From contig NZ_CP024160.1 of assembly GCF_002736145.1 (NCBI RefSeq), positions 2,170,001 through 2,234,000 on the forward strand: DNA of 64,000 nucleotides, written 5' to 3'. The position numbers and the translations under genes were made by a program. Shown one piece after another: positions 4,928 through 49,607 of the stretch. Source of the DNA: Collinsella aerofaciens (GTDB taxonomy: Bacteria; Actinomycetota; Coriobacteriia; Coriobacteriales; Coriobacteriaceae). Each line of letters opens with the position of its first letter. The first letter of the stretch is position 1. The notes under the pieces are model-generated. The model saw only the letters and a list, made by a program, of their open reading frames with translations. It had not been told where the DNA came from and did no database searches.

Positions 4928-5035
4928 GCGGTCGGCAGTTAAGTCTGTCGCGAGTTCCGCACGCAAAGGAAAGCACTTAATGTGCTTTCCGTCTTGCGCA
5001 GGACTGTCCGAGCAGCAGACTTAACTGCCGACCGC
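4928..5035 (-). repeat. Structured intergenic element R1 (constant core, 20-base perfect inverted arms)
   Basis: Perfect 20-base arms (4928-4947 and 5016-5035) enclose a core with an inner hairpin around ATTAA. Read on the minus strand the core contains GTCCTGCGCAAGACG and TTTGCGTGCGGAACTC, which recur at 48868-48927 (element R2) with different stems. The element is the 3' region of the dehydrogenase gene at 5050 and precedes the isomerase gene, so it could modulate expression within this operon. Confidence 0.85.
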
Positions 5036-45633: not shown

Positions 45634-47147
45634 TGGCGCTAAGCTTCGATTCCCTTACCGCCGCCCAGATCGCCGCCGGCGTTGCCGCCGGCGACTTTAC
45701 TGCTACCGAGGTGGCCCAGGCCTCCCTTGCTGCCATCGAGGCGCGCGAGGGCGGGGTCCAGGCATTCCTGCAGGTGGCGCCCGAGCTTGCGCTCGAGGCC
45801 GCCGCGCACGTGGATGCCGACCGTGCCGCAGGCAAGCCGCTGCCCCCGCTCGCGGGCGTGCCGCTGGCCATTAAGGACAACATGAACCTCGTGGGCACGC
45901 GCACCACCTGCGCTTCCCGCATGCTCGGGGACTACCAGAGCGTCTACACCGCCACCTGCGTCCAGCGCATGCTCGACGCCGGCTGTCTGCCCATGGGCAA
46001 GGCCAACATGGACGAGTTTGCCTTTGGCAGCTCTACCGAGAGCTCGGCGTTCCACCGCACCAACAACCCCTGGGATACCGAGCGCGTGCCCGGCGGCTCC
46101 TCGGGCGGCTCCGCTGCCGCCGTCGCCGCGGGCGAGGTCGCGCTCTCGCTGGGCTCGGACACCGGCGGCTCCATTCGCCAGCCGGCGTCGCTGTGCGGCG
46201 TGGTGGGCTTTAAGCCCACGTATGGCGCCGTGAGCCGTTACGGCGTGGTTGCCTTTGGCTCGTCGCTCGACCAGGTGGGTCCCTTTGGCCGCACGGTCGA
46301 GGATGTCGCGCTGGCCATGAACGCGCTTACCGGCGCGGGCCACGATCCGTACGACTGCACCAGCCAGGATTGCGCCGTCGACTTTACCGAGCATCTCAAC
46401 GACAGCATCGAGGGCAAGCGCGTGGGCATCATCCCCGCGTTCATGGAGGCCGAGGGCCTGACGCCCGAGGTCAAGGCCGCTGTTCAGCGCGCCGCCCAGG
46501 AGCTGCAGAACCAAGGCGCCGAGCTGGTCGAGGTCGACCTGCCGCACCTGGATGCCGCCATCGCTGCCTACTACGTCATCGGCCCGGCCGAGGCGTTCTC
46601 CAACCTGGCCCGCTTCGATGGCATTCGCTACGGCTACCAGGAGGAGGGCTGCGCCAACCTGTCCGACCAGAGCTCGCTTTCGCGCGCCCACGGCTTTGGC
46701 GCCGAGGCCAAGCGCCGTCAGATGCTCGGCGCCTATCTGCTGAGCTCGGGCGTGTACGACAAGTACTACTACGCCGCACAAAAGGCCCGCACGCTTATCA
46801 CGCAGGACTACGACGCCGCGTATGCCAAGGTGGACACCATCCTCATGCCCGCCTCGCCGCGCACGGCCTTTAAGTTTGGCGAGATCAGCGACCCCACGCA
46901 GATGTACCTCTCCGACCTGTACACCATTTCGCTCAACATTTGCGGCAACGGCGGTATCTCGGTGCCGCTGGGCCTGGGCGAGGATACGCAACTGCCCGTT
47001 TCTGCCCAGCTGGTTGGTCCGGCCTTTAAGGACCGTCAGCTGCTCACGTTTGCCCGCGCCCTGGAGCGCGGCTTTGCCGATGCCGCCACGGGTGCACCCG
47101 CGCTTTCCGTCGCGCCCGATTTTGCCGGGAAGGGAGGCGAGCTGTAA
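45633..47147 (+). CDS. gatA: Asp/Glu-tRNA(Asn/Gln) amidotransferase subunit A
   Basis: A 504-residue amidase-signature protein that releases ammonia from glutamine. The catalytic Lys is in GVPLAIKDNM, the cis-Ser in GGSSGGSAAA, and the nucleophile Ser in GSDTGGSIRQPAS. One-base overlaps with gatC and gatB (TAATG arrangement) give a translationally coupled gatCAB operon. The complex converts Glu-tRNA(Gln) and/or Asp-tRNA(Asn) to the amide form and implies lack of a direct GlnRS or AsnRS (inference). Confidence 0.97.
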   Translation: MALSFDSLTAAQIAAGVAAGDFTATEVAQASLAAIEAREGGVQAFLQVAPELALEAAAHVDADRAAGKPLPPLAGVPLAIKDNMNLVGTRTTCASRMLGDYQSVYTATCVQRMLDAGCLPMGKANMDEFAFGSSTESSAFHRTNNPWDTERVPGGSSGGSAAAVAAGEVALSLGSDTGGSIRQPASLCGVVGFKPTYGAVSRYGVVAFGSSLDQVGPFGRTVEDVALAMNALTGAGHDPYDCTSQDCAVDFTEHLNDSIEGKRVGIIPAFMEAEGLTPEVKAAVQRAAQELQNQGAELVEVDLPHLDAAIAAYYVIGPAEAFSNLARFDGIRYGYQEEGCANLSDQSSLSRAHGFGAEAKRRQMLGAYLLSSGVYDKYYYAAQKARTLITQDYDAAYAKVDTILMPASPRTAFKFGEISDPTQMYLSDLYTISLNICGNGGISVPLGLGEDTQLPVSAQLVGPAFKDRQLLTFARALERGFADAATGAPALSVAPDFAGKGGEL

Positions 47148-48823
47148 TGAAGGAGCTTTCCGAGGTCCTGCAGGATTGGGAGGCCGTGATCGGCCTGGAG
47201 ATCCATACCGAGCTCACCGCACTCGATACCAAGATGTTCTGCAACTGCAAGCTCAGCCACGATGACGAGCCCAACGCCAACGTGTGCCCGGTGTGCCTGG
47301 GCCTGCCCGGCGCGCTGCCGGTGCCCAACAAGCGCGCCATCGAGAGCATCGTCAAGGCCGGTCTCGCCACCAACTGCGAGATCCAGCGCCACTCGATGTT
47401 CTACCGCAAGCACTACTTCTATCCCGATATGGCCAAGAACTTCCAGACTACGCAGGGTCCGGTCGCCTTTGCCATGTACGGTCACCTGGACCTGGACGTG
47501 ACCGGTCGCGGTGCCGCCGAGCGCCCCGACTGCGCGTTTGGCGAGGCCGAGGCTCAGAGCCTGGCGAGCGCCTCGGCCAACGCCGAGGGCCTGTCCACGT
47601 CCATGACGTCGACCATGCGCGAGGGCAACCAGCGTGCCGGCCACCTGGCCAGCTACGATGCGTCCAACCTGCAGATGCCCGAGCGTCGCGAGGACGGTTC
47701 CTACACGGTGCCCATCCGCATCCTGCGCATCCACATGGAGGAGGACGCCGCCAAGATGGTTCACGTGGGCGGCGCCGAGGGCCGCATTACCGCCGCGGCC
47801 GAGTCGCTTGTCGACTACAACCGCTGCGGTACGCCGCTCATCGAGCTTGTCACCGAGCCCGATCTGCGCACGCCCGAGGAGGCTCGCCTGTTTATGGAGA
47901 AGCTCCGTCGCATCTTTGTGACGCTGGGCATTTCCGATTGCTCCATGGAGAAGGGTTCCATGCGCTGCGACGGCAACGTGTCGCTGCGCCGCCGCGGCGA
48001 GACCAAGCTGGGCACCAAGACCGAGCTCAAGAACCTCAACTCGTTTAAGAGCCTGCATGACGGCCTTGCCTACGAGATCTGCCGCCAGGCCGAGGTGCTC
48101 GAGGAGGGCGGCATCATCTATCAGGAGACCCGCCACTGGGAGCCCAGCCGCAAGCGCACCGTGGTCATGCGTGTGAAGGAAACGGCAGACGACTATCGTC
48201 TGTTCCCCGATCCCGACCTGGCGCCGTTCGACCTGGACGACGAGTTTATCGACCGTTGCCGTGGCGAGATTCCCGAGCTGCCCGATGCCAAGTGCGCCCG
48301 TTTTGAGGCCGACTTTGGCATTAAGGCGGCCGACGCCGAGCAGATCGCTGGCGACCCGGAGTTTGCCGACTTCTTTGAGGCCGCCGCTGCCGGTATGGCC
48401 GGCAAGGAGGCCCAGACGGTTGCAAACCTGCTGGTGAACGAGATGATCGCCTACCTTAAGGGCGCAGGCGTGTCGCTCGCCGAGTCCGGCATCGCGCCGG
48501 CTCAGGTGGCAGCGCTGGCTAAGCTGCTGGCGACCGATGCCATCAGCTCCAACCAGGCGCACGAGGTCTTTGAGGCCATGGCCCAGACCGGCGACGACCC
48601 CAACAAGATCGTTGACGAGCGCGGTATGCGTCAGGTGAGCGATGCCGGCGCGCTGCAGCCGATTGTGGACGAGGTGCTGGCAAACTGTGCCGAGCAGGCG
48701 CAGCAGTATCGTGACGGCAACCAGAAGGTTATCGGCTTTTTGGTGGGCCAGTGCATGAAGGCGAGCCGCGGCAAGGGCAACCCGAAGCTCTTCAACGAGT
48801 TGCTGAGAACGTCGCTCTCGTAA
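47147..48823 (+). CDS. gatB: Asp/Glu-tRNA(Asn/Gln) amidotransferase subunit B
   Basis: 558 residues, somewhat longer than the usual 480. The N-terminal kinase/transferase core has VIGLEIHTEL, CPVCLGLPGALPVPN and KHYFYPDMAKNFQ, with zinc-site cysteines (MFCNCK and CPVC). A helical linker and a C-terminal YqeY-like tRNA-binding tail follow (to FLVGQCMKASRGKGNPKLFNELLR). It phosphorylates and amidates the mischarged tRNA. Last gene of gatCAB; followed by the large hairpin element R2. Confidence 0.96.
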   Translation: MKELSEVLQDWEAVIGLEIHTELTALDTKMFCNCKLSHDDEPNANVCPVCLGLPGALPVPNKRAIESIVKAGLATNCEIQRHSMFYRKHYFYPDMAKNFQTTQGPVAFAMYGHLDLDVTGRGAAERPDCAFGEAEAQSLASASANAEGLSTSMTSTMREGNQRAGHLASYDASNLQMPERREDGSYTVPIRILRIHMEEDAAKMVHVGGAEGRITAAAESLVDYNRCGTPLIELVTEPDLRTPEEARLFMEKLRRIFVTLGISDCSMEKGSMRCDGNVSLRRRGETKLGTKTELKNLNSFKSLHDGLAYEICRQAEVLEEGGIIYQETRHWEPSRKRTVVMRVKETADDYRLFPDPDLAPFDLDDEFIDRCRGEIPELPDAKCARFEADFGIKAADAEQIAGDPEFADFFEAAAAGMAGKEAQTVANLLVNEMIAYLKGAGVSLAESGIAPAQVAALAKLLATDAISSNQAHEVFEAMAQTGDDPNKIVDERGMRQVSDAGALQPIVDEVLANCAEQAQQYRDGNQKVIGFLVGQCMKASRGKGNPKLFNELLRTSLS

Positions 48824-48827
48824 GCGG

Positions 48828-48968
48828 GAACCCGGAAGCCCCGGCAGGGCGGGTGCTTCCTCAAAATTTCGAACAGTCCTGCGCAAGACGAAGGCCACAT
48901 TAAGTGGCCTTCTTTGCGTGCGGAACTCATTTTGAGCAAGCACCCGCCCTGCCGGGGCTCCCGGGTTC
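48828..48968 (+). repeat. Structured intergenic element R2 (constant core, 31-base inverted arms)
   Basis: Arms 48828-48858 and 48938-48968 pair at 30 of 31 positions; CTCAAAAT / ATTTTGAG extends the stem inwards. The core (48868-48927) shares GTCCTGCGCAAGACG, ATTAA and TTTGCGTGCGGAACTC with R1 at 4928-5035, while the inner stem GAAGGCCAC/GTGGCCTTC replaces GGAAAGCAC/GTGCTTTCC. It sits directly behind gatB in the same relative orientation as R1 behind its gene. Confidence 0.88.
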
Positions 48969-48969
48969 T

Positions 48970-49048
48970 GTGACGACTCGGCCGTTCGGGTCAGGTAGGC
49001 TGAATGGAATAGAGTGAATGGGCGCGCCGTTGGCGCGCCCATTGTTTT
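48970..49048 (+). ncRNA. Candidate small-RNA/terminator unit, tandem copy A
   Basis: GTGACGACTCGGCCGTTCGG and following TCAGGT..GGCTGAATG form a conserved 5' part with a short hairpin. It ends in a perfect AATGGGCGCGCC/GGCGCGCCCATT hairpin (49017-49043) with GTT loop and TTTT. Copy B lies 128 bases downstream. Not matched to a known RNA family. Confidence 0.5.
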
Positions 49049-49097
49049 GAAGGGAACTCATTGAGAGGCAAGGCCCTGCGCCCGGCCCCTCGGTTCC

Positions 49098-49178
49098 GTG
49101 ACGACTCGGCCGTTCGGGTCAGGTGGGGCTGAATGAAATTTGGTGAATGAGGGTGCTGTTGGCGCCCTCATTTTTTTG
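49098..49178 (+). ncRNA. Candidate small-RNA/terminator unit, tandem copy B
   Basis: The same 5' part as copy A (first 27 bases identical). The terminal hairpin AATGAGGGTGCT/GGCGCCCTCATT (49146-49172) differs in sequence but pairs fully when GU pairs are allowed, followed by seven Ts. Confidence 0.5.
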
Positions 49179-49245
49179 TGGATGTGGCGCAGGGACGGTC
49201 CCTTGGTCGTATCGTGCCTCAAGATTTCCAAAAAGTTAACCTTTG

Positions 49246-49277
49246 TTGACCTTAATAGTTAGATAAACTAAACTATT
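49246..49277 (+). promoter_or_regulatory. Promoter and metal-regulator-like operator of the P-type ATPase operon
   Basis: TTGACC (49246-49251), 17-base spacer, TAAACT (49269-49274). Inverted AATAGTT/AACTATT (49254-49260, 49271-49277) spans spacer and -10. The position and AT-rich palindrome resemble DtxR/MntR-type operators; the regulator is not in the window. Confidence 0.55.
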
Positions 49278-49361
49278 TTCCAAAAGTGTGCTCGAGCAAA
49301 CTTGTTTACTCGGGTGCTGAGGCACCGTGCCGCGTCCAATGCGGCAAAAGGGAGAGACATC

Positions 49362-49607
49362 ATGAAGAAGTCCACGTTCAACACCCTGCTTGTCGGTGGC
49401 GGTTTTCTGCTTGGCACGGCCGGCATCAAGCTGCTTACCAGCGCCCCGATCAAGAATGCCTGCGTGCAGGGTATCGCGTGCGGTATGCGCATCAAGAATG
49501 GCTACCAGGACATGGTCGAGCAGGCCAAGGCCGAGGTCGACGACATGGTTGCCGAGGCGGCCTACATCACCCAGAGCGAGGCCGCTGCTGACGAGGCAGC
49601 CGAGTAG
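49362..49607 (+). CDS. Small DUF6110-like protein of metal-ATPase operon
   Basis: 81 residues: MKKSTFNTLLVGGGFLLGTAGIKLL is a glycine-rich hydrophobic N-terminus, followed by SAPIKNACVQGIACGMRIKNGYQDM (given here in part: two Cys residues in the middle) and an acidic helical tail. I recall similar small proteins, annotated DUF6110, directly upstream of heavy-metal P-type ATPases in Firmicutes and Actinobacteria. Here too the ATPase starts 18 bases downstream. An accessory or metal-chaperone role is inference. ATG at 49362 has AAAGGGAGAG. Confidence 0.75.
   Translation: MKKSTFNTLLVGGGFLLGTAGIKLLTSAPIKNACVQGIACGMRIKNGYQDMVEQAKAEVDDMVAEAAYITQSEAAADEAAE

Follow-up and report, generated by a model that had tools for sequence, protein, structure and literature searches.

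The two tandem units that follow gatB in Collinsella aerofaciens are probably terminator cassettes acting in cis in the 3′ untranslated region (UTR) of gatCAB, behind one copy of a dispersed long-hairpin family, and not free-standing small-RNA genes. We favor this reading, drawn from sequence comparison, because the units are tied to gatB in 22 of 22 clade genomes, their terminators covary and no promoter-like site precedes them; because the second unit begins with a stretch found unchanged in the only unit of two other strains and the hairpin before the units is much more stable than its shuffled versions; and because a stop codon followed by the element and then a terminator is seen again elsewhere (10 of 32 sense copies), with an excess of sense-oriented copies after the ends of coding-like frames.

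The window, that is, the whole stretch of 64,000 nt analyzed here, is part of a complete genome of 2.306 Mb (G000) from the C. aerofaciens complex. The following features, given in positions of the window, are relevant.

47147–48823, + strand: gatB, 558 aa, to which the 3′ UTR belongs (ORF)
48828–48867, + strand: left arm of the long hairpin, allele arm1 (inverted repeat, 95% complementary to 48929–48968)
48868–48928, + strand: conserved head (inner hairpin) of the dispersed family (BLAST, alignment, pair counts)
48929–48968, + strand: right arm of the long hairpin, allele arm1 (inverted repeat, strain comparison, fold)
48970–48996, + strand: identical 27-nt part of unit 1, including the constrained 20-nt core at 48975–48994 (repeat and divergence)
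49017–49043, + strand: terminal hairpin of unit 1, 12 bp, loop GTT, weak T-tail to 49049 (repeat finder, pair counts)
49053–49062, + strand: GGAACTCATT, tail of a second element head whose left half is missing (repeat match)
49063–49097, + strand: right arm of unit 2, other allele (arm2), without a matching left arm in its own genome (strain comparison)
49098–49124, + strand: identical 27-nt part of unit 2, with core (sequence, repeat finder)
49145–49173, + strand: intrinsic-terminator hairpin of unit 2, 13 pairs, loop GTT, followed by a T-tail (terminator scan, pair counts)
4952–5011, − strand: the window's other head copy, flanked by arms of its own (G000 2174952–2175011; fold z −8.6)

Architecture of the gatB 3′ end

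The inverted repeat at 48828–48968, earlier labeled R2, stands directly before the units and is one copy of the dispersed long-hairpin family, with a fold of −109.3 kcal/mol against −52.7 kcal/mol in shuffles (z −14.4). Behind it, direct sequence comparison revealed 27 identical nucleotides (GTGACGACTCGGCCGTTCGGGTCAGGT) at 48970–48996 and 49098–49124, the two units being offset by 128 nt, and each unit continues through a linker into its own terminator hairpin, with a GTT loop in both cases. The original prediction had described just this arrangement, identical 27-nt 5′ parts followed by differing hairpins with the same type of loop, and had also assigned T-tails to both units. Such a tail is clear in unit 2, where the scan called an intrinsic terminator, but the tail of unit 1 (ATTGTTTTG) is weaker and no terminator was called there, although the hairpin is present.

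The repeat is also longer than first described. The repeat finder reported matches of 44 nt (89%, spacing 128) and 52 nt (79%, spacing 129), and a further 15-nt match between 48922–48936 and 49053–49067 moves its true start to a position 5′ of the 27-nt identity, with GGAACTCATT and a right arm standing before the second core. Unit 2 therefore also holds the end of a head and the right arm of another allele.

Pairing in the terminators, described as preserved from the two units alone, was kept among relatives as well. Among 26 distinct units from relatives, eight of the 12 pairs of the terminator stem were changed on both sides, and in the core hairpin and terminator together 98.7% of the counted cells pair, against 29–48% with partners slid. 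The core may adopt two alternative folds, GACUCG/CGGGUC and UCGGCC/GGCUGA, which the data did not separate; the variant core of genome G020 breaks two pairs of the former and improves one pair of the latter. Given the covarying terminators and a constrained core in both units, it is very improbable that the locus reflects a neutral terminator duplication in which nothing is selected beyond one terminator, even though 16 of the 22 genomes have a single unit and a second one is thus dispensable.

The lack of coding potential suggested for the units agrees with the ORF list, in which no plus-strand ORF of at least 60 aa covers them, and a coding function was consequently dropped. A 668-aa ORF on the minus strand, antisense to gatB, looks like an artefact of high GC content. 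Small palindromes of the GGGAC-GTCCC type (CAAAGGGACTGTCCCTTTG) are found just past the unit terminators, at 49184–49205 and also in other strains at loci L097, L112 and L116, and possibly represent another dispersed repeat.

Units across strains and the small-RNA question

Although gatB was present in all 43 genomes of the genus, the unit was restricted to the 22 with the closest gatB. In these, which are the 22 genomes of the C. aerofaciens clade, it is always located behind gatB. A DNA search with the unit matched 22 of the 43 genus genomes, and the core pattern with up to two mismatches matched 21 of 43 (21 of 65 in the family, all from one genus); the reversed core pattern, used as a control, gave zero matches in the same genus and family genomes. 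The 22 carriers comprise 20 genomes with the exact pattern, our own included, one with two mismatches (G025) and G020, which was found only by the DNA search, its core being a variant. In a sister genome with 94% identity (G012), the inner head is absent and only a simple hairpin with part of the core is present, and seven more distant gatB loci that were read contained other sequence or simple hairpins. In G010 the unit lies on a separate contig, at an assembly break, and in G023 it is about 2.5 kb farther from gatB because of an insertion between the two. The inserted segment of about 2.5 kb (L125), with ends TGTTAGCGCCGG...CCGGCGCTAACA and adjoining the right arm, resembles an insertion sequence.

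The genes 3′ of the units vary by strain (a DUF6110-like ORF with an ATPase, an AraC-like gene or an AAA ATPase-like gene, according to the translations read), indicating that the element goes with gatB. Regulation of the downstream gene in cis was rejected, since these genes differ while the unit persists. The downstream neighbor of gatB is in itself a spot of gene turnover. When an 18-mer (GACTCGGCCGTTCGGGTC) was searched in 84,980 species genomes, it had matches, besides Collinsella, in taxa that are unrelated by title.

Two units are found in six of the 22 genomes (G000, G003, G020, G023, G030 and G031), in agreement with the duplication first proposed. The first 72 nt of unit 2 (49053–49124) are identical to the sole unit of G033 and of G008, which points to an allelic copy added in tandem; judging from this identity, unit 2 is a recombinant allelic copy and not a diverged paralogue. 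In G020, the variant core GACTCAGCCGTTCTGGTC stands in each of the two tandem units (L113), suggesting concerted evolution. The arms differ in all six two-unit genomes, but a rule against equal arms in tandem units was set aside as a weak idea, with about a 9% chance of such a result under random pairing at the observed class frequencies (hand arithmetic).

The 20-nt core showed a mean pairwise difference of 0.020 among 20 genomes, compared with 0.142 at the four-fold sites of gatB (231 pairs from 22 genomes), a ratio of 0.14, which makes the core about seven times less variable. The 24 nt that follow it (0.276) and the left and right arms of the gatB locus (0.303 and 0.354) all exceed the four-fold sites. 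The core is thus constrained within a fast-changing region.

Bacterial small RNAs derived from 3′ UTRs combine a conserved segment with a terminator at the end of an mRNA, and our units, known here from sequence alone, have the same layout. A small RNA released from the gatCAB 3′ UTR is possible because the core varies so much less than the four-fold sites of gatB. We consider it rather unlikely, however, that a cut in the hairpin, for instance by RNase III, frees small RNAs of about 80–90 nt made of a seed hairpin and a terminator and acting on other messages. The divergence of the linkers and arms around a quiet core, the maintained arrangement of conserved 5′ part and terminator, and the single variant core shared by the two units of G020, as if they were kept alike, are all consistent with such products. 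On the other hand, a sigma-70-type scan of 48700–49450 found no promoter-like site before the units, the sole such site lying after them and before the next gene, and the unit is limited to one species complex, with a single sister genome (L117) carrying it in part. A long complementary target of the core was also rejected, since no site in the genome besides the units matches its complement over 20 nt with up to three mismatches, although real seeds can be shorter. What stood of the original proposal is the conserved 5′ part, together with the kept terminator pairing, the duplication, the place behind gatB and the lack of coding potential, whereas independent small-RNA genes are disfavored by the lack of a promoter-like site, the tie to gatB, the lack of a near-complementary 20-nt target and the nature of unit 2 as a recombinant allelic copy.

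With Rfam 15 at the gathering threshold, the window matched tmRNA only, and no family reached its gathering score at five loci with element copies; a relaxed threshold at the locus returned weak matches to a terminator hairpin and to unrelated families. A check against catalogued Collinsella motifs had been advised. Collinsella-1 (RF01700), a candidate structured RNA that shares the genus name and is listed in PMC2864571, gave no covariance match in our genome or at the locus (E up to 10), and the control genomes were equally silent.

A dispersed hairpin family with hypervariable arms

BLAST with the head retrieved 24 matches from our own genome in a first search and 35 in a second, 33 of them at E ≤ 0.006, and we estimate the family at about 33 copies. 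Each consists of a conserved head of about 60 nt between locus-specific, near-perfectly complementary arms of about 22–54 bp. Among the 30 own copies read, the arms of complete copies were complementary to each other with few exceptions and differed by locus: the left arms of 29 own loci were alike at 11.0 of 24 positions on average, compared with 9.4 after shuffling, and their distal 14 nt at 7.1 compared with 6.8. In an alignment of 28 own copies, from which two truncated ones (L159 and L161) were left out, 96.0% of the cells pair, against 76.6% when shuffled and 35–46% when slid, with two-sided changes in 169 cells against 46.4 in shuffles.

A covariance model built from these 28 copies was run on 246 Coriobacteriia genomes and at E 0.01 matched 116 of them, from 43 of 110 genera; of the isolated weak matches outside our own family, one (G154) was checked by reading. 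At E 1e-4, the model matched 15 of 296 genomes of the phylum, all in our own order. Twenty-nine loci read from 14 chosen distant genomes all carry CAGTCCT with their own arms around it, and the GGAACT side is also kept, with one base changed in one locus. We found no published description of this hairpin family in the open-access literature, and it is apparently undescribed so far.

Four pairs of copies about 150–230 bp apart face each other in our genome (731392/731661, 313960/314171, 1636123/1636410 and 1555128/1555411). In some places, convergent genes each have their own sense copy between them (L149/L165 and L167/L143).

The comparison of arms between strains covered 14 loci, with 13 copies from our own genome and 41 orthologous ones from other strains. 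The orthologous copies come from 51 heads in 39 of 40 fetched loci, ten heads having been left out of the grouping for a missing or ambiguous own match or for being the gatB head. When the 37 distinct arm pairs of this set were placed at the offset that pairs best, 776 of 814 positions were complementary. Of 261 differences between alleles, 200 affect both arms with complementarity kept, 43 affect one arm only and 18 affect both arms without matching. The arms of one locus are discrete alleles between strains, both arms having changed together. By a cruder script, 92 within-locus pairs of these copies differed on average by 0.087 in the heads, 0.21 in the arms and 0.13 in the flanks, the last figure including pairs with poorly alignable flanks; in many of the pairs the two copies have identical arms, so the arms are not faster in every case.

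At the gatB locus we found four arm classes, with nine, eight, four and one genomes. Divergence at gatB four-fold sites is 0.140 within and 0.143 between classes, showing that arm classes are unlinked from gatB divergence; the corresponding values for the last 300 nt of gatB are 0.121 and 0.128. Such independence, in arms that differ by only 0.01–0.02 within a class, would be expected if units and arms were recombination cassettes at the DNA level, with conserved flanks that permit exchange between strains and tandem units as by-products. Three own copies are broken, and two of them (L169 and L151) are chimeras with arms of different alleles, as such cassettes might also produce; the third, L161, is half an element. 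We nevertheless regard this explanation as improbable: ordinary homologous exchange suffices without a dedicated system, no element-linked integrase or transposase was found in a search that was not systematic, and a few positions seem conserved between genera (L257 with L167, L244 with L154).

Gene ends, known systems and significance

By a crude coding test, 14 of 29 own copies and 16 of 28 distant ones have a coding-like frame that ends no more than 40 nt before the left arm, compared with three and five on the antisense side; one of 30 own copies (L159) and one of 29 distant ones (L257), whose head pattern was unmatched, were left out. Copies often lie 4–30 nt past a stop codon in sense orientation. 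A strong terminator occurs within 150 nt of the right arm in ten of 32 sense copies, own and distant, where shuffles gave 0.7, and some of these ten may belong to convergent genes. Host genes recognized by Pfam include TsaD, the valyl-tRNA synthetase C-terminus, NRDD, peptide deformylase and a PcsB-like coiled coil in our genome, and gyrase B, CoaE, YebC and a class II tRNA synthetase core in distant ones, among others, two of the 20 queried proteins having no Pfam match; copies follow a PcsB-like gene in our genome and again in a genome from another family (L168 and L230).

About half of the copies are not directly after a stop codon. Several stand upstream of rplC-, rplJ-, rpsL-, groES-, valS- and thrB-like starts (named from the protein starts read) and point away from them, and valS appears to be bracketed by two outward-pointing copies, L166 before it and L156 after it. 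In front of strong operons, such outward copies could serve transcripts that run divergently.

Behind the gatB stop codon come left arm, head, right arm, 20-nt core and intrinsic-terminator hairpin, the part from the head end through the terminator having been duplicated in tandem with a second copy from a strain with another arm allele. Under the terminator-cassette reading, RNA polymerase leaving gatB would transcribe the long hairpin, which could then form a structured end of the message that blocks 3′ exonucleases and/or makes the polymerase pause, while its conserved bulged head might be read by a putative factor. Terminator A would stop transcription and terminator B would catch what reads through, and the arms, needing only to match each other, would be free to drift or to be swapped as cassettes. 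Some observations fit this reading poorly. The T-tail of terminator A is poor, copies pointing away from gene starts go beyond a pure 3′-UTR function, and the 20-nt core is more strongly constrained than termination alone would account for. Moreover, only ten of 32 sense copies have a recognizable downstream terminator, so any role of the hairpin relative to termination is tentative. A bolder proposal, to which we give a small chance, is that the element marks outward borders of transcription units across the Coriobacteriia, with a fixed bulged head read by a dedicated factor and both arms rewritten together by active copying, through arm-to-arm template switching or cassette exchange, which would give each locus a stem of its own, perfectly matched and variable between strains, the gatB units being terminator partners that yield a 3′-UTR small RNA.

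REP, BIME and REPIN sequences are located at the 3′ ends of genes. Like our family, which resembles them in placement, they are dispersed intergenic palindromes, for which roles in termination and mRNA stability have been suggested (PMC2817692, PMC3733652). In REP and BIME, however, the stem is the repeat and copies number in the hundreds, whereas here the head is conserved, the stem differs by locus and strain with no common stem beyond the slight likeness of the left arms given above, and copies are about 33. Families of bacterial stem-loop sequences that repeat a common stem-loop have also been described (PMC2267715), but the main text of that paper contains neither "compensatory" nor "variable stem", and a fixed head with hypervariable matched stems was not found there. 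Both unit ends resemble intrinsic (Rho-independent) terminators in having a GC-rich hairpin followed by T, and differ from plain ones in their conserved 20-nt core and in their place behind a long hairpin with a conserved head.

Taken alone, the units look like ordinary terminator cassettes whose core is unusually constrained. The hairpin family, by contrast, is spread over many genera of common gut Coriobacteriia, at gene ends and with hypervariable matched arms and, if transcribed, would represent a class-specific RNA architecture for the ends of messages. Its arm alleles add a natural experiment in which long inverted repeats stay perfectly matched while their sequence is replaced.
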